Shown in pieces: positions 50,850 through 56,307 of a stretch of DNA of 64,000 nt. The DNA is taken from assembly GCF_014284195.1 (NCBI RefSeq), contig NZ_JACOGC010000001.1:434001-498000 (forward strand), in the 5' to 3' direction. How positions within the stretch are numbered: the first letter of the stretch is position 1; each line of letters begins with the position of its first letter. Origin of the DNA: Cognatundibacterium griseum. Its GTDB lineage: Bacteria; Pseudomonadota; Gammaproteobacteria; Burkholderiales; Burkholderiaceae_D. A program made the translations under genes and the position numbers. Below the pieces are notes generated by a model, which had not been told where the DNA came from, did no database searches, and saw nothing but the letters and a program-made list of their open reading frames with translations.

Positions 50850-52142
50850 TCAGGCGGTGGCCGGAAATACCGGCCACATGGCGCTGATCCTGCCTTCGTC
50901 GAGCAGGGCGATATCGCCGAATTGCTGCAACACCGCCTCGCTCTGGCGCGGCCGGAAAAACACCGTGTCATCGACCTGCAGTTGCTGGCGGCCTGATTGC
51001 AGCAGCAACTGCTGATTGGATGAGGTGCCGTACAGTCCGCTTGCGCTGAGCCCGGCAGGTGATACCGGGTCTGCCAGCCAGTTGCCGCCGTAAATGAAAA
51101 TTCCCTGCTGCTGGTTTGGGTCCCAGGTGCGGGCAGCGTCGCCGAGCCATTCCACGCCGTAAGGCATGCGGAACTGTTCACTGACTTTCAGCACCGGTGT
51201 GGCGATCAGTGCCGCTGTCTGCAGATCGGACAGAGAGGGAAGATCAAAGTCCGAAGGCTTCACCATCGCAGAGCCGACCGAGACTTCATTCTCAATCCCG
51301 CTGCCGTCATACAGGCGGTAAGTCGGCGAGCCGCCGGCATTGAACACCAGCGGATGATGAATTGCGTGCGTACTGCTGCGGTTCAGCACGTCAATCGCCT
51401 CCTGCGCCATCGCGGTATAGGTCTGGTGCGCGTGTGCATGCGCCTGCTGCTGCAACCCCGGCAGATCGGGAATCTTGGCGACATGGGCGTCATAACCCAT
51501 CATGCCGCTGAATTGCAGGCGCGCTTCGCTTTGCAGCAAGGTCAGCATTTCATGCAGTGTGGTCATGCTACCGATACCGCCGCGATGCAGGCCGACATCG
51601 ATTTCAAAACTGATGCGCATCACCGTGTTCAGCTGGCGCGCCAGATCGCGGTATTGCACCAGCCGTTGCGGCGTGTCGATCAGCCATTGCAATTGCTGCT
51701 GCGGAACGAAGTCGCGCGGATTGCGGGCATGTTCCTGATAGAACTGCGCGGCAGCGGCCACCGGCATCGGCTTGCCCAGCAAAATATCATTGCCGCCCTG
51801 CGCCATCATGCGCAATTGCGGCAGACTGAACAGCATCATGCGCGGGCTTTGCGTGACGGCACTGATTTCACGGATCAGCGCTTCACAGGGCAGTGATTTG
51901 ACTACCAGCCGGAACTGCATGCGCTGACCGATATTACGCATGATCTGCTGCGCATTGTGCAGCAGCCGCTGACGATCTATCAGCAGGACCGGGGTGCTGA
52001 TGCCTGCCTGCTTCAATGCCTGCGCACTGCGCGTGAAGTAAGCATCATGCGGCGCACCTTTGGCTGAGGGCCGCAATGCCCACAATCCCGCCAGTCCGAT
52101 ACCGGTTGCGGCCAGCAGTTTGCGTCGCTGACGGGAAATCAT
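50850..52142 (-). CDS. Exported DSD1-like PLP enzyme (D-amino acid deaminase/aldolase type)
   Basis: Encodes 430 residues. The leader SRQRRKLLAATGIGLAGLWAL is of Tat type, which exports folded proteins with bound cofactor. The body is a fold-III PLP enzyme: PLP lysine in FRLVVKSLPCEAL (about residue 85), EIDVGLHRGG, GMMGYDAHVA, EVSVGSAMVKPSDFDL and a C-terminal RPRQSEAVLQQFGDIALLDEG. It resembles D-threonine aldolase/D-serine dehydratase (DSD1) proteins and the actinobacterial amino acid deaminase/aldolase group. The ATG at 52142 overlaps the FAD gene stop by 4 nt; the longer frame to 52346 lies within that gene. The substrate is unknown. Confidence 0.82.
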   Translation of the reverse strand: MISRQRRKLLAATGIGLAGLWALRPSAKGAPHDAYFTRSAQALKQAGISTPVLLIDRQRLLHNAQQIMRNIGQRMQFRLVVKSLPCEALIREISAVTQSPRMMLFSLPQLRMMAQGGNDILLGKPMPVAAAAQFYQEHARNPRDFVPQQQLQWLIDTPQRLVQYRDLARQLNTVMRISFEIDVGLHRGGIGSMTTLHEMLTLLQSEARLQFSGMMGYDAHVAKIPDLPGLQQQAHAHAHQTYTAMAQEAIDVLNRSSTHAIHHPLVFNAGGSPTYRLYDGSGIENEVSVGSAMVKPSDFDLPSLSDLQTAALIATPVLKVSEQFRMPYGVEWLGDAARTWDPNQQQGIFIYGGNWLADPVSPAGLSASGLYGTSSNQQLLLQSGRQQLQVDDTVFFRPRQSEAVLQQFGDIALLDEGRISAMWPVFPATA

Positions 52143-53569
52143 GATTGCACCCCGAAAATCTGGCGCAGATGCGGATTGAGCATGCGGCCCGCCGGATCGT
52201 ATTCCTGCCGCAGCGCCAGGAAATCTTTCCAGCGCGGATACAGTGCCGCAAAATCGCCGGCCTGATGCGCATGCAGCTTGCCCCAGTGCGGGCGGCCCTC
52301 GTAACGGCGGAATACCGGCGCAATATCGTCGACCAGATAGCGCCACGCCTCTCCAGCCGCAGCATGCACTGCCACCGAACAGGATGCGCGCTGATAGAAC
52401 GGACTGAGCCAGGCATCATCTTCCTGCACAAAACGGAATTCCAGCGGGAAGTACACGTCGTTGCGCTGTTCCAGCCGCTGGATCACCTCGCGCACGCAGG
52501 CAATGCCAGCCTCTTGCGGCACATGGCATTCGGATTCGTTAAATCGGGTCGGACGCGACGTGGACAACAGCTTCCAGGACTGATCCTGTGCGGTTTCCTG
52601 TTGCGCCGGATTGATAAGTTTTTTCGCAATCCAGCGCCGCAACTCGGGGAAGCGGCCCAGCCGGTCGCGCAGCTGTTTCAGGCTGTGCAACATGGCTTCG
52701 TCGCCGGAATCGGGGCGCAATTGTTCAGCACTGGTCGCAATATCATGCGTGATCGCTGCGGCATAGCCGGTGAACGGCAGATAATAAAATTCAAAATGAC
52801 GATGCTGCCTTGCCAGTTGCGGTGCCTGATCCAGCATGTCCTGCACCGGCAGCAGCCAGACTTTGCGGCGCAGACGATAGGCCGGTACCGCCTCCAGCGT
52901 CATTTCGGTCAGGATGCCGAGACTGCCGAGCGATACTTTGGCTGCCTGCAGCAATTCGGGAAGGCGTTGTTCGCTGTATTCGACGATTTGTCCGGAGGGT
53001 GTCGCCAGACGCAGCGCTTTCACTTTTGCGTGCAGCGCCGGTAAAGTCATGCCGGTGCCATGCGTTGCGGTGCTGATGGCGCCGGCCAGCGATTGCGCGT
53101 CAATATCCGGCTGATTGTGCATCGCCAGTCCGCGCGCATCCAGCTCGCGTGCCAGTTGCGCCAGCCGTGTGCCAGCCTGTATCCGCACCAGCGCGCCGTC
53201 CTGACCGGCAATGCCCGACAGGCTGTCGAGCGACACGATCTGCCCCGGTGTCGGCACCAGCGTCGTGAAGGAATGCCCCGCGCCCACGCAGCGTACCGGC
53301 GACTGGCTGTTTGTCAGCAACTGCAGTACCGCTGCCTCATCGGCCGGGCTTTGTATGGCCTGCGGCTGGCAGGTCTGGATGCCGGACCAGTTTTGCCAGG
53401 TCAGCGCCTGAGCGGAAGTTTGCGGTGGCAGTGCAGGCGTTGGCGGTGTGAATGGTTCAACCGGCATCCGGGAACATTCCGCCAGAATACCGATACCGCC
53501 GAGCGCACCGGCGGCAACACCGGCACGGATCAGATTTCTGCGCAGAGCGCTGGGAGTGTGCTGGGTCAT
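52139..53569 (-). CDS. Exported FAD-dependent oxidoreductase, D-arabinono-1,4-lactone oxidase type
   Basis: Encodes 476 residues. The leader RRNLIRAGVAAGALGGIGIL is twin-arginine-like. The FAD_binding_4 domain shows RCVGAGHSFTTLV, in which the histidine is a candidate for covalent FAD attachment, and NQPDIDAQSLAGAISTATHGTG. The ALO C-terminal domain ends in GRPHWGKLHAHQA. Relatives oxidise aldono-lactones or sugar alcohols. A c-type cytochrome gene directly upstream (4-nt overlap) suggests that electrons pass to cytochrome rather than oxygen. The start ATG at 53569 is chosen because it begins the export signal. The next gene also overlaps by 4 nt. Confidence 0.87.
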   Translation of the reverse strand: MTQHTPSALRRNLIRAGVAAGALGGIGILAECSRMPVEPFTPPTPALPPQTSAQALTWQNWSGIQTCQPQAIQSPADEAAVLQLLTNSQSPVRCVGAGHSFTTLVPTPGQIVSLDSLSGIAGQDGALVRIQAGTRLAQLARELDARGLAMHNQPDIDAQSLAGAISTATHGTGMTLPALHAKVKALRLATPSGQIVEYSEQRLPELLQAAKVSLGSLGILTEMTLEAVPAYRLRRKVWLLPVQDMLDQAPQLARQHRHFEFYYLPFTGYAAAITHDIATSAEQLRPDSGDEAMLHSLKQLRDRLGRFPELRRWIAKKLINPAQQETAQDQSWKLLSTSRPTRFNESECHVPQEAGIACVREVIQRLEQRNDVYFPLEFRFVQEDDAWLSPFYQRASCSVAVHAAAGEAWRYLVDDIAPVFRRYEGRPHWGKLHAHQAGDFAALYPRWKDFLALRQEYDPAGRMLNPHLRQIFGVQS

Positions 53570-53952
53570 GCTGCTTCCTTTGCCGGATGTGCTGTGTGAA
53601 TCGGGGTGGACATGAATTCGATCAGGCGACGTAAATCCTGATCGCTGCAGCCGCTGCAAAAGCCCTTCGGCGGCATGGCCTTGTAGCCATCGCGCGCATG
53701 TTGCAGCAATACCTCCTGACCCTGCGCCAGCCGTGGCGCCCAGTCGGCTTCAAAGCCTACCAGTGGTGCGGTGCTGGCCGGGGACACATGGCAGCTGATG
53801 CAGGAGCGCTGATAAATCTGGGACAGCGCCATATCGGCGGGGCGTGCGGCTTCGGCAGCGCTGATCTGTTGCGGTCCGGGCGTGACATGCTGCGGCTGGC
53901 AGGCGCACAGCAGCCATGCCGCGCTCACCGTCTGTATGAAAGTGCGGAACAT
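53566..53952 (-). CDS. Cytochrome c5-like lipoprotein
   Basis: Encodes 128 residues. The leader ends in LLCAC, a plausible lipobox. Haem is bound by CISCH (about residues 51-55), and the likely sixth ligand is the methionine of MPPKGFCSGCSD, whose second CxxC forms the disulfide typical of cytochrome c5. It is the first gene of the operon and overlaps the FAD gene by 4 nt, so it is probably the electron acceptor of that enzyme. Confidence 0.87.
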   Translation of the reverse strand: MFRTFIQTVSAAWLLCACQPQHVTPGPQQISAAEAARPADMALSQIYQRSCISCHVSPASTAPLVGFEADWAPRLAQGQEVLLQHARDGYKAMPPKGFCSGCSDQDLRRLIEFMSTPIHTAHPAKEAA

Positions 53953-54108: not shown

Positions 54109-54264
54109 TTGCGTCTCGCCAGAAGTTGTTTGTCGTGAGTTGTGACTACAGCCTGACAGGCTGTACCGAATGCCTGATGCGGCATCAGATTGTGGGATGA
54201 ATGCGGAAAAAAGGAAGGGCGGCGTGCTGCCGCCGTAAAAGGTCAGGCAATCAGCGAAGAAATA

Positions 54265-54816
54265 TCAGTGCGTGGACGGCGCGGTCGGCACGGTTTCCGG
54301 TGCCAGCAGGTATTCACGCACCAGTTCGCGGGCGCGGTGCAGGCGGCTCTTGACCGCACCGGGCTGTTCACCCAGCCGTTCCGCGATTTCTGCGATCGTC
54401 AGTTCTTCAAAGTCGCGCAGTAAAACCACTTCCAGATAATGTGCCGGCAAGGATTCCAGCGCATTCGCCAGATCAATCCGCAAGGCATCGTCCGTGCGGC
54501 AGCTGAGCTGGCGTTCTGCTGTGTCGTCTTCCAGCGGATCATGCCTCAGCATCAGGCGTTCGAGCTTGCGGCATTCGCGTTTGATCACGGTAAACAGCCA
54601 GGAAGAAAAGGCCGCTGCCGCTTTCAACCCCGATACTTTGCGTGAAATCACCAGCAGCGATTCCTGCACCGCATCGTCAATATCGCTGGCCTGGCAATGG
54701 CGGCGGGCATAGCGCCGCGCATCGGCCTGGCAGACTGTCAGCAAGCGTTTGATGGCAACAGGATCACCGGCCTGCGCCGCAAAAATCAGGTCAGTTCTGT
54801 CGATCCCGCTGGTCAT
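54265..54816 (-). CDS. ECF-type RNA polymerase sigma factor
   Basis: Encodes 183 residues. Region 2 (about 10-80, LLTVCQADARRYARRHCQASDIDDAVQESLLVISRKVSGLKAAAAFSSWLFTVIKRECRKL) and region 4 (about 115-170, ALESLPAHYLEVVLLRDFEELTIAEIAERLGEQPGAVKSRLHRARELVREYL) are both present; region 3 is absent, as in ECF factors. It is cotranscribed downstream of a small DUF2892 gene (3-nt gap). No classical anti-sigma gene lies beside it. The matched elements at 55070 and 55252 suggest that it transcribes its own operon and the cysteine-rich peptide operon. Confidence 0.9.
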   Translation of the reverse strand: MTSGIDRTDLIFAAQAGDPVAIKRLLTVCQADARRYARRHCQASDIDDAVQESLLVISRKVSGLKAAAAFSSWLFTVIKRECRKLERLMLRHDPLEDDTAERQLSCRTDDALRIDLANALESLPAHYLEVVLLRDFEELTIAEIAERLGEQPGAVKSRLHRARELVREYLLAPETVPTAPSTH

Positions 54817-54819
54817 GAT

Positions 54820-55029
54820 TTATTTCCCCTTATCGAGTTTGCGGCCCACCATAGCGCACATCGGGCAAAAGCCGATCAGTCCGGTGACCGCCAGCATTGC
54901 CGCCATGATACCAATGCCCGTCATCATGGCAGAAGTATTCCAGTTCATTGCAGCAAACGCCAGCCCCATGATACCCATGACGATGCGTAATATACGTTCC
55001 CATCCCGGGACATTCTTTGTGTAAAACAT
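54820..55029 (-). CDS. DUF2892-family small membrane protein with a CPMC motif
   Basis: Encodes 69 residues: MFYTKNVPGWERILRIVMGI is the usual YgaP/DUF2892 start, followed by two hydrophobic helices (about 13-30 and 35-53). C55 and C58 (GFCPMCAMVGRKL) sit at the membrane face and could bind a metal or react with thiols. It is the first gene of the sigma operon, 3 nt before it. In the absence of an anti-sigma gene, it is the only local candidate for a sensor or anchor. That role is inference. The start follows AAAAAGGAGAAC. Confidence 0.83.
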   Translation of the reverse strand: MFYTKNVPGWERILRIVMGIMGLAFAAMNWNTSAMMTGIGIMAAMLAVTGLIGFCPMCAMVGRKLDKGK

Positions 55030-55069
55030 GGTGTTCTCCTTTTTGTCAGTGTGAGGTCAATCCTCCTTT

Positions 55070-55103
55070 GCTAAGAGCCGGGTTCGCATGAAAACGGTTC
55101 GCG
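55070..55103 (-). promoter_or_regulatory. ECF-type promoter of the DUF2892-sigma operon
   Basis: On the minus strand CGCGAACCGTTTT (55103-55091), 13 nt and CTCTTAGC (55077-55070). The same two blocks at the same distance stand before the peptide gene in the other direction. An additional GCGAACC lies in the spacer. GAACCG and CTCTTA are 17 nt apart, as expected for a -35/-10 pair. Confidence 0.75.
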
Positions 55104-55251
55104 AAAATTAAAAAATATTCTTAAATACATTCTTAAAAATATTCTTTAAATTTTTTTATACAGCATTCCTCCGGTCCGCCGCAGTAAACGACAAACGGCC
55201 AGCGTGATGCTGTACGGCAAGCCGGAGACTTCAAAAAAAATATTGAGAAAC
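55104..55251. other. AT-rich core between divergent ECF-type promoters
   Basis: 148 nt without a gene. The stretch 55105-55160 is almost only A and T and repeats TATTCTTAAA with variations three times. It may help opening or bind a nucleoid protein. I see no RNA gene. It is part of the 310-nt gap between the DUF2892 and peptide genes. Confidence 0.5.
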
Positions 55252-55285
55252 CGCGAACCGTTTTGTCCATTCACCTCCTCTTAGC
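55252..55285 (+). promoter_or_regulatory. ECF-type promoter of the cysteine-rich peptide operon
   Basis: CGCGAACCGTTTT (55252-55264), 13 nt and CTCTTAGC (55278-55285), identical in both blocks and spacing to the element at 55070 on the other strand. Transcription would begin near 55291, leaving about 50 nt of leader before the ATG at 55340. Confidence 0.75.
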
Positions 55286-55339
55286 TGGGCAGGTTATACC
55301 TCTGCACCTTTACTTTCTTAATCTGATCTGGAGACACAC

Positions 55340-55618
55340 ATGAAATCTTCTTTGAAAATGGCTTCGCTGGCAGCACTGACTGCAGCAACTCTGGCGCTCC
55401 CGGCAGCCGCAGGCGACATGCCGGACGCACAGGCAAAATGCCAGCCAGCCGGCATGCGCAAATGCGCGCCGAAATGTGCAGCCAAGTGCGCCCCGGCAAA
55501 ACATGCCAAAGCCAAATGCGGTGCAAAATGTGCTCCGAAGTGCGCTCCTAAATGTGCCCCGAAATGCGCGCCTAAGTGTGCGCCTAAGTGTGCACCTAAG
55601 TGCGCTCCAAAACACTGA
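55340..55618 (+). CDS. Secreted cysteine-rich repeat peptide (CAPK repeats)
   Basis: Encodes 92 residues. Residues 1-24 form a normal signal peptide (SLAALTAATLALPAAAGDM). The mature part has 12 cysteines, first irregular (KCQ, KCAPK, CAAK, CAPAK, CGAK), then seven exact CAPK units that put a cysteine every fourth residue, ending in a histidine. Synonymous codons differ between units (TGT/TGC, GCT/GCC/GCG/GCA, CCG/CCT/CCA, AAG/AAA), so the repeats are old and kept by selection. The gene is followed without gap by a DUF6969-like gene (TGATG overlap). A periplasmic metal- or thiol-binding peptide, possibly modified after translation, is likely. I do not recognise a named family. Confidence 0.88.
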   Translation: MKSSLKMASLAALTAATLALPAAAGDMPDAQAKCQPAGMRKCAPKCAAKCAPAKHAKAKCGAKCAPKCAPKCAPKCAPKCAPKCAPKCAPKH

Positions 55619-56307
55619 TGAGCGCATCGTCCGGACGCAGGCCGGCAGCGCCGGCCAAGACCTCCGGAGCGGCTGCCGTCCGGCGTATTCTGGAGACATA
55701 CGCCGGGCTGGCGGAGCGGGGTGAGCACCTGTTGCACCGCCTGCTCGCCGGTCAGACTCCCCGCCAGTGGCAGCATTATCCGCAGGAGGATGCGATTGAT
55801 CTGCGCAGCGGCTATCAGTGGTTTTATCACTCGCACTCTCCCGAAGACCGGCCTGGCAGCGCTGAGCACGGACACTTTCACCTGTTTGCCCGCCGGCCTC
55901 TGTGGAGCAGGCGGTTGCACTCTCATGCCGGACAGGCATTTGCCAGGCTCACCGGGCAACCGCAGCGGACGGTGCAAACCCGGCATTTGCTGAGTATCGG
56001 TCTGGATGCGAAAGGTGTGCCGGTCAGCCTGTTTACGGTGAACAGCTGGGTCACCGGCGACCTGATGCTGAATGCCGCCCTGACCGAACAATTGCTGGCA
56101 CGGATACAGCTCAACACCGGCCACCCTGACATTGAACGCATGCTGACAAACCTGATCCGGCTCTGCCTGCCTCAGATCAGGCTGTTGCTGGCTGCGCGGG
56201 ATGCGGCGCTGGCCAGCCGTCAGCCGGACACCGTGCTCACGGATCAGACACTGGAAGTGCTGTCGCATCTGCCGATTGATCTGGACCGGCAATTCCTCGC
56301 AGGATAA
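55618..56307 (+). CDS. DUF6969-like protein, partner of the cysteine-rich peptide
   Basis: Encodes 229 residues without a signal peptide. From memory of the family pattern it matches DUF6969: GYQWFYHSHSP, EHGHFHLFARR, HLLSIGLDAKGVPVSLFTVNSWVTGD, LIRLCLPQIRLLLAARD and a late LEVLSHLPIDLDRQF. The closely placed histidines (YHSH, HGHFH) could hold a metal. Its ATG shares a base with the peptide stop, so the two are made together. A role in modifying, loading or handling the peptide is a reasonable inference, not shown. The last 123 nt before the MgtC gene carry no gene. Confidence 0.75.
   Translation: MSASSGRRPAAPAKTSGAAAVRRILETYAGLAERGEHLLHRLLAGQTPRQWQHYPQEDAIDLRSGYQWFYHSHSPEDRPGSAEHGHFHLFARRPLWSRRLHSHAGQAFARLTGQPQRTVQTRHLLSIGLDAKGVPVSLFTVNSWVTGDLMLNAALTEQLLARIQLNTGHPDIERMLTNLIRLCLPQIRLLLAARDAALASRQPDTVLTDQTLEVLSHLPIDLDRQFLAG

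Follow-up and report, generated by a model that had tools for sequence, protein, structure and literature searches.

An exported cysteine-repeat peptide paired with a DUF6969 protein behind divergent ECF-type promoters in Cognatundibacterium griseum: a putative secreted-polythiol system

In this analysis, we followed up a locus in a 64,000-nucleotide stretch of Cognatundibacterium griseum DNA (contig NZ_JACOGC010000001.1, positions 434,001 to 498,000; referred to below as the window), where a gene for a secreted cysteine-repeat peptide is followed directly by a DUF6969 gene and lies divergent from an extracytoplasmic function (ECF) sigma factor gene. A preliminary description made from the sequence had placed four genes here; all four lie where stated, and the observation is confirmed. 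The sigma protein matches Sigma70_r4_2 (E = 5.7e-16) and Sigma70_r2 (E = 2.3e-7) in Pfam. The features of the locus are as follows.

54218 to 54234, minus strand: intrinsic-terminator-like hairpin with a T-rich tail, just 3' of the sigma gene (consensus scan)
54265 to 54816, minus strand: ECF sigma factor, 183 aa (Pfam and NCBIfam)
54820 to 55029, minus strand: YgaP-like_TM/DUF2892 small membrane protein with an FCPMC motif (Pfam, E = 4.4e-16)
55071 to 55102, minus strand: ECF-type promoter upstream of the DUF2892-sigma operon, GCGAACCGTTTT-N14-TCTTAG (exact match)
55253 to 55284, plus strand: second, identical copy of the ECF-type promoter (GCGAACCGTTTT-N14-TCTTAG), upstream of the peptide-DUF6969 operon and 55 bases from its ATG
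55340 to 55618, plus strand: exported Cys-repeat peptide, 92 aa with 12 Cys (signal peptide at about 55340 to 55411, read from sequence)
55618 to 56307, plus strand: DUF6969 protein, 229 aa (Pfam PF22308, E = 9.1e-57)

The description of the peptide as a secreted protein with a signal peptide and 12 cysteines holds: both the signal peptide and a Cys-rich mature part, with a Cys at every fourth residue, can be read from its sequence. Seven CAPK repeats had been counted, which is correct for the consecutive units (55529 to 55612), but the total is eight. These eight units have eight different codon spellings, and a comparison with the peptide of U. oligocarboniphilum (locus L025; loci are designated L and genomes G), the nearest relative among the DUF6969 matches listed (93% identical), gave 23 synonymous and 5 nonsynonymous codon differences in 92 codons. 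The spellings, the synonymous excess, and recurrence of the peptide elsewhere rule out a chance low-complexity open reading frame (ORF) and identify a real gene. A detector for a signal peptide plus Cys repeats had this gene as its sole match in the window; in Pfam and NCBIfam, the peptide has no match above a curated cutoff, DUF2282 included, the Buf_6/12Cys and EGKCG profiles lying outside this comparison. The peptide stop codon and the DUF6969 start codon share one base (TGA/ATG, position 55618), as had been noted, and an in-frame GTG at 55600 is a possible alternative start for DUF6969.

The pairing of the two genes recurs in other genomes. A scan of named genomes gave at least 522 encoded DUF6969 relatives, of which the best 80, representing 79 distinct loci, were kept; this set therefore leans toward near relatives. 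A second set comprised 33 DUF6969 loci outside the 79. Of the 79 loci, 60 have a Cys-repeat protein with a signal peptide no more than 1 kb from DUF6969, and 67 have one within 3 kb (that at L099 being spurious); in the second set, 27 of the 33 loci have one at a distance of 1.5 kb or less. As a control, the same detector was applied to 452,610 bp at distances above 4 kb, where it gave 5 matches, including one of true repeats (L094). All picks were read: besides the spurious L099, those at L080 and L125 were on the wrong strand, with a true peptide present at both loci, and that at L049 had the wrong start; the others were read as Cys-repeat proteins. A narrower detector confined to the first 70 residues of each ORF (46/79 loci within 1 kb, 50/79 within 3 kb, and 22/33 in the second set) missed peptides already seen and was therefore widened. 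Of the 60 peptides, 56 are encoded upstream on the same strand, and for 46 of these the stop codon is no more than 100 nt from the first DUF6969 residue matched; 1 is downstream, and 3, including a mispick, are on the opposite strand. The preliminary description had set recurrence of the peptide/DUF6969/sigma association as its test; when this test was run, the association did recur, but the pair is more widespread than the triad, since close orthologues of the sigma factor (phmmer E < 1e-60) lie within 6 kb of DUF6969 at 27/79 loci. DUF6969 is present in 15 of 98 relatives, counting the C. griseum genome itself and a short partial match in G067, in 20 of 398 genomes sampled across the phylum, again including C. 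griseum, and in 167 plasmid records (Sinorhizobium, 104; Burkholderia, 47; Azospirillum, 13; others, three).

For several DUF6969 genes, no adjacent peptide was detected (L106, L108, L109, L111, L113, L116, and L137, and in addition some alphaproteobacterial metagenome-assembled genomes). Genes of this kind (L106, L108, L109, L111, and L137) would suit an alternative in which DUF6969 does not touch the peptide and is a coregulated detoxifying enzyme or regulator. Some peptide-less loci, however, have a peptide of another form or elsewhere: when 11 genomes were searched with one NPCAAK query, G113 proved to have a peptide at another place in the genome, and G178 one that is fused to a cytochrome. 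As the pairing also persists through changes of sigma factor, peptide type, and neighbors, we consider this alternative improbable.

The type of repeat varies with lineage. Most loci in beta- and gammaproteobacteria have CAPK/CGAK, the other members of the C. griseum genus (L015 to L020) have CCAAKKG, and NPCAAK or CNPCAAK occurs at alphaproteobacterial and other loci. The peptides upstream of DUF6969 at L118 and L119 are possibly lipoproteins: they have a lipobox-like start and contain CCAAEG/CAAE or CAAC repeats. In S. meliloti 2011, the stretch immediately upstream of DUF6969 on pSymB contains an unannotated frame (L138:7520-7894) that encodes a signal peptide and PCAAGAPC units.

The leader of the peptide is strongly conserved. 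Its first 24 residues have a mean identity of 78%, compared with 39% for the thioredoxin leader at the 24 loci with both proteins, and of 80%, compared with 33% for the cytochrome leader at the 14 loci with both; DUF6969 identity in these loci is 55 to 60%. The leader set comprised 57 of the 60 peptides, including the mispick at L080. Around the ALTAA core, codons differ at 62% of the identical residues (43 leaders), which indicates that selection acts on the protein. Sec export alone would not call for such strong conservation; the leader may therefore be recognized by a partner protein, for which DUF6969 is the obvious candidate.

The DUF6969 protein matches its profile with 192.3 bits (curated cutoff, 27) over positions 2 to 201 of 201, and since no signal peptide was seen, it should be cytoplasmic. 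It is unrelated to MNIO enzymes, in agreement with the earlier statement that the peptide is coupled to a different histidine-rich protein. Residues invariant over 28 members include H53, D58, Q67, Y70, H71, H73, E83, H84, G85, H86, H88, N142, W144, R194, and D195, and this His-rich core probably binds metal. In an AlphaFold2 model (predicted local distance difference test, 90.4; predicted template modeling score, 0.87), the His motifs lie on or beside the modeled strands 54 to 61, 66 to 72, and 85 to 92. No known fold was recognized in the searches conducted: the sequence profile had 0 matches in the PDB, a Foldseek search of the PDB gave no significant match (best E = 0.82), no viral model matched significantly (best E = 0.30), and all 28 members match PF22308, a second Pfam family appearing solely as one-member matches at chance level. 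An apparent fusion of the L090 DUF6969 to a 349-aa N-terminal part was rejected, as this part has no further Pfam domain and a nonsense-like translation. No paper on DUF6969 was found in the open-licence literature, and searches of that literature with the peptide repeat strings returned unrelated papers only.

It can be envisioned that DUF6969 acts as an escort, which would bind the reduced Cys array, exclude metals and disulfides, and hand an unmodified precursor to Sec. The conserved leader, the overlap of the peptide stop with the DUF6969 start, the lack of a match to a known enzyme fold, and the finding of no known modifying enzyme among the window neighbors scanned are all consistent with such a role. 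Against these stand the invariant H, D, E, Q, Y, N, and W residues, which occur in short motifs more reminiscent of an active site than of a chaperone surface, and the wide variation of the repeats (CAPK, CCAAKKG, NPCAAK, and CAAE), which makes a simple shape-based escort less obvious; we regard the escort as a rather doubtful explanation.

The two operons share a promoter. The divergent intergenic region carries the same motif facing both ways, exact at 55102 (minus strand) and 55253 (plus strand), and across the 79 loci, 59 sites with at most three mismatches were found in 30 loci. At two mismatches or fewer, there were 45 sites in 25 loci, compared with 0 for four spacing shifts and five permuted motifs. 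When each site was assigned to the first classified same-strand gene downstream (end within 2 kb, or 0.9 kb for the peptide), 58 of the 59 preceded DUF2892 (22), sigma (1), cytochrome (17), thioredoxin (6), Cys peptide (10), or DUF2282 (2) genes, and one preceded nothing classified. Of the 27 loci at which a close sigma orthologue is present, 25 have a site, compared with 5 of the 52 others. The proposal of one ECF regulon thus stands, based on promoters shared in the window and in its relatives, and we infer that the sigma factor controls both operons. The DUF2892 homologues near DUF6969 keep a CPxC motif in 25/25 cases, and this membrane protein is a candidate anti-sigma factor or sensor; a B. 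glumae plasmid has a zf-HC2 protein instead of DUF2892 beside its sigma gene. DUF2892 was not mentioned among the open-licence literature matches listed, and a combined search gave unrelated matter only.

Elsewhere in the C. griseum genome, the sole further site with at most one mismatch lies on contig C14 near 305.7 kb (L128); the other seven sites listed have three mismatches, and the reversed control pattern gives two. The C14 site precedes a gene for a 173-aa signal-peptide protein without a clear family (weak DUF3224, below the cutoff), which is followed by genes for a GDCCVxC protein and then a Cupin_6 protein. At 10/79 loci, a homologue of the 173-aa protein is encoded within about 3 kb of DUF6969, nine of these homologues having 78 to 87% identity, and at L079 the homologue directly follows thioredoxin and CcdA genes. 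Starting from the promoter motif only, the search therefore arrived at a gene with a physical linkage to the module in other genomes.

Neighboring genes were identified with one similarity query per family and counted among the ORFs within 6 kb of DUF6969 at the 79 loci. This gave sigma at 32 loci, thioredoxin and CcdA at 29 each, DUF2892 at 25, cytochrome at 18, carboxymuconolactone decarboxylase family at 14, DUF2282 at 8 (Pfam confirmed in seven), and AraC at 7; for single representatives, Pfam identified DsbD_TM, thioredoxin, and SoxA-TsdA_cyt-c domains. The system had been called self-contained, which describes the minimal version in C. griseum but not many of its relatives, where thioredoxin, CcdA, and cytochrome c genes share the promoter.

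Other neighbors relate to metals and arsenic. DUF2282 genes stand behind the same promoter motif at L031 and L033. Genes for ArsM-like or ArsS-like proteins lie within about 8.3 kb of DUF6969 at 9/79 loci (L026, L027, L030, L033, L048, L051, L071, L072, and L076), a raw count; the L072 methyltransferase is below the NCBIfam ArsM cutoffs, and L076 has arsenosugar glycosyltransferases above the cutoff. The B. glumae plasmid module lies within an annotated arsenosugar biosynthesis cluster; its row (L140:2035-9021) consists of thioredoxin, CcdA, sigma, zf-HC2, MFS, Cys peptide, and DUF6969 genes. In C. griseum, a separate row (L150) contains a TIGR04282 arsenosugar glycosyltransferase, a thioredoxin, CcdA, and an ArsM-like gene. 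The DUF2282 genes behind the motif, the ArsM-like and ArsS-like neighbors, and the B. glumae cluster favor a view of the peptide as a passive envelope buffer for metals or metalloids such as copper and arsenite, in effect a secreted metallothionein, with the redox genes incidental. In comparison with metallothioneins, the peptide is Cys rich but has a signal peptide and no family match above the cutoff. The thioredoxin and CcdA genes and the cytochrome fusions described below suggest thiol redox turnover, so that purely passive buffering seems somewhat unlikely. The bufferin genes behind the motif at two loci and the arsenosugar clusters would point to soft metals or metalloids, and the thioredoxin/CcdA genes and cytochrome fusions to redox turnover; the two indications are compatible.

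The cytochrome query, from L053, matches SoxA-TsdA_cyt-c in Pfam (E = 8.2e-8). NPCAAK repeats and a SoxA-TsdA_cyt-c domain occur in one protein at L084, L112, and L115, and judged by sequence, similar fusions are likely at L009, L022, L110, L143, and L146; CNPCAAK-type repeats are joined to a cytochrome P460 in alphaproteobacteria (L081, L090, and L100). FGE-sulfatase-like proteins adjoin DUF6969 at L088, L096, and L097, which are related to the P460 loci. In eight aligned cytochromes, both fused and unfused, CxxCH and one further Cys are kept. In the Sox system, SoxV and SoxW are the CcdA-like and thioredoxin-like partners that reset the Sox carrier. SoxA-family enzymes use a heme-ligating Cys (PMC4423706), which makes the further conserved Cys a candidate ligand. 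In relatives that have all of these genes, the system would share with Sox a SoxA/TsdA-like cytochrome (PMC4423706), CcdA-like and thioredoxin-like partners, and a periplasmic reactive-Cys carrier; unlike in Sox, the carrier would be a many-Cys repeat peptide. A sulfur conveyor can be imagined on this model, in which the cytochrome would load sulfur on the Cys array and thioredoxin/CcdA would reset it in the manner of SoxW/SoxV. It would account for the L053-cytochrome homologues at 18/79 loci and the fusions, for the rhodanese and YeeE/YedE genes beside DUF6969 in S. meliloti, and it would fit the joining of thiosulfate to thiolates by SoxA-family enzymes (PMC4423706). The homologue was not seen at 61/79 loci, the match to SoxA in the PDB is weak, and the cytochrome was not found in the C. 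griseum genome, where the controls of the search were equally silent; the conveyor is quite improbable. In S. meliloti ml56 (L139), the order is a sulfurtransferase and a YeeE/YedE gene, then DUF6969.

The preliminary description also stated that no MNIO enzyme is near. This is so among the ten proteins of 50.8 to 58 kb scanned with Pfam, which include no DUF2063 protein either; two MNIO genes nevertheless lie elsewhere in the genome, both with a Pfam-confirmed DUF2282 gene just before them; the nearer of the two is on the same contig at a distance of about 118 kb. The peptide might then be a bufferin-like substrate of these enzymes in trans. MNIO is present in 71 of the 98 relatives and in 11 of 14 with DUF6969, and none was found in G067, which is outside the 14; but it is as common without DUF6969 (60/83) as with it (11/15), and there is therefore no link. 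No MNIO match was obtained in 3 of the 14 DUF6969 relatives or in 9 of the 19 other DUF6969 genomes of the phylum sample, all of which are at least 93% complete. Seven MNIO-less cases have a nearby Cys-repeat protein (L019, L022, L112, L115, and L121 to L123; the genome of L019, G020, is 83% complete). Since the window peptide also has no DUF2282 match, this explanation is disfavored and highly improbable.

In bufferin systems, DUF2282/Buf1 and Buf2 precursors are accompanied by an MNIO enzyme and a DUF2063 partner (PMC12452194). Like these systems, the present one has a Sec signal peptide on a Cys-rich precursor, with the precursor gene first and a dedicated protein next, an ECF sigma factor, as in Buf1 clusters, and a possible link to metal stress (PMC12452194). 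It differs in its peptide family with C-x-x-K repeats, in the unrelated partner DUF6969, and in having DUF2892 (zf-HC2 in B. glumae) in place of NrsF (PMC12452194). The system works like bufferin systems but is not one of them: it has no neighboring MNIO enzyme (PF05114), its precursor is not of the DUF2282 type, and its partner is not a DUF2063 protein. Resemblances to other ECF systems are also partial.

GigA of Cupriavidus metallidurans is presumably an MNIO enzyme. The Gig system (gigPABT-rpoQ) of this organism is likewise an operon for a secreted Cys-containing peptide divergent from an ECF sigma gene, and it is induced by copper and gold; unlike the present locus, it is a bufferin-type cluster, and DUF6969 does not appear in the available part of the account (PMC10304878). 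Hypochlorite scavenging by SigF/NrsF-MrpX-YedY1 of Azospira similarly joins an ECF-driven scavenger peptide rich in a sulfur amino acid to a reductase, whereas here a Cys-rich peptide occurs with thioredoxin/CcdA (PMC5748585). In the Bradyrhizobium EcfF/OsrA regulon, a peroxide-responsive ECF factor controls a periplasmic thioredoxin and a DsbD-like protein; that regulon has an ECF16 promoter (tGTAACc-N16-CGAA) and a DUF1109 anti-sigma factor, and the available part of the account includes no Cys-repeat peptide (PMC3420878). The present locus instead has DUF2892 rather than the NrsF/DUF1109 of ECF16 SigF/NrsF systems, and the promoter GCGAACCGTTTT-N14-TCTTAG. The B. cenocepacia transcriptome under H2O2 and NaOCl gave no usable link in the part available (PMC2830190).

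Based on the promoters, the pairing, and the conserved leader, we favor, with modest confidence, the view that this is an ECF-controlled secreted-polythiol system whose peptide is handled before export by DUF6969 and, in many relatives, reduced by thioredoxin/CcdA. The sigma factor would drive both divergent operons, the DUF2892 protein holding it until a thiol-reactive envelope stress frees it. Before export takes place, cytoplasmic DUF6969 would bind the conserved signal-sequence leader of the precursor and modify, metallate, or protect its cysteines. Once exported, the peptide would form a dense periplasmic thiol array that binds soft metals or metalloids and takes up oxidants; in many betaproteobacterial relatives, thioredoxin/CcdA expressed from the same promoter could re-reduce it, and a SoxA/TsdA-like cytochrome, fused to the repeats in some lineages, could exchange electrons with it. 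The earlier interpretation, of a self-contained metal- or oxidant-responsive system with a possible maturation step by the DUF6969 protein, is thus partly supported. More tentatively, DUF6969 may represent a new class of peptide-modifying metalloproteins that recognizes a Sec leader and alters Cys or Lys of the C-x-x-K repeats, giving an undescribed group of exported polythiols similar to ribosomally synthesized and posttranslationally modified peptides, which in several lineages, joined to SoxA/TsdA-like or P460 cytochromes, would serve as a redox or sulfur conveyor and not as a passive buffer.

Several findings weigh against the secreted-polythiol system as outlined. No promoter site with at most three mismatches is present at 49/79 loci, and no peptide was detected at the set distance at 12/79 and 6/33 loci. 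The NPCAAK query had no match in G199, G258, G339, G342, G448, and G451, although such a single query misses other repeat types, with L107 (G199) and L124 (G339) having a repeat protein nearby. The DUF6969 metal site is read from conserved residues, the fold search yields no enzyme relative, conservation of the leader may have a cause unrelated to DUF6969, and an escort role for DUF6969 fits as well. Compared by sequence with the PDB, the cytochrome matched best to MbnH, di-heme peroxidases, and MauG, around CxxCH, and to SoxA weakly (E = 0.0065). No SoxA/TsdA-type cytochrome was obtained from the C. griseum genome in the search with silent controls, and the thioredoxin/CcdA pair of this genome lies in a different, arsenosugar-type cluster without the promoter at three or fewer mismatches.

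The export of modified Cys peptides as a bacterial defense against copper stress was established with the bufferins, and the present system would be a parallel to them that is undescribed in the open-licence literature searched. It has another peptide family, another cytoplasmic partner, its own ECF promoter, and, in many relatives, a thioredoxin/CcdA branch, and it links ECF signaling, envelope thiols, cytochromes, and arsenic metabolism. With two small genes, the function of DUF6969 becomes directly testable, and the recurrence of the pair across many bacteria points to a possible unrecognized way to make and use protective thiols outside the membrane.

In the surroundings of the locus, no RNA element reached the Rfam gathering score between 53000 and 57500. 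The hairpin at 54218 to 54234 possibly closes the DUF2892-sigma operon; the window has 5 such terminator-like hairpins, compared with 2.6 expected from shuffles, a weak excess when taken alone. A minus-strand run at 50850 to 53952, which encodes an alanine-racemase-N protein, a flavin adenine dinucleotide-linked ALO-type oxidase, and a small cytochrome c, adjoins the sigma gene and is apparently an operon separate from it.

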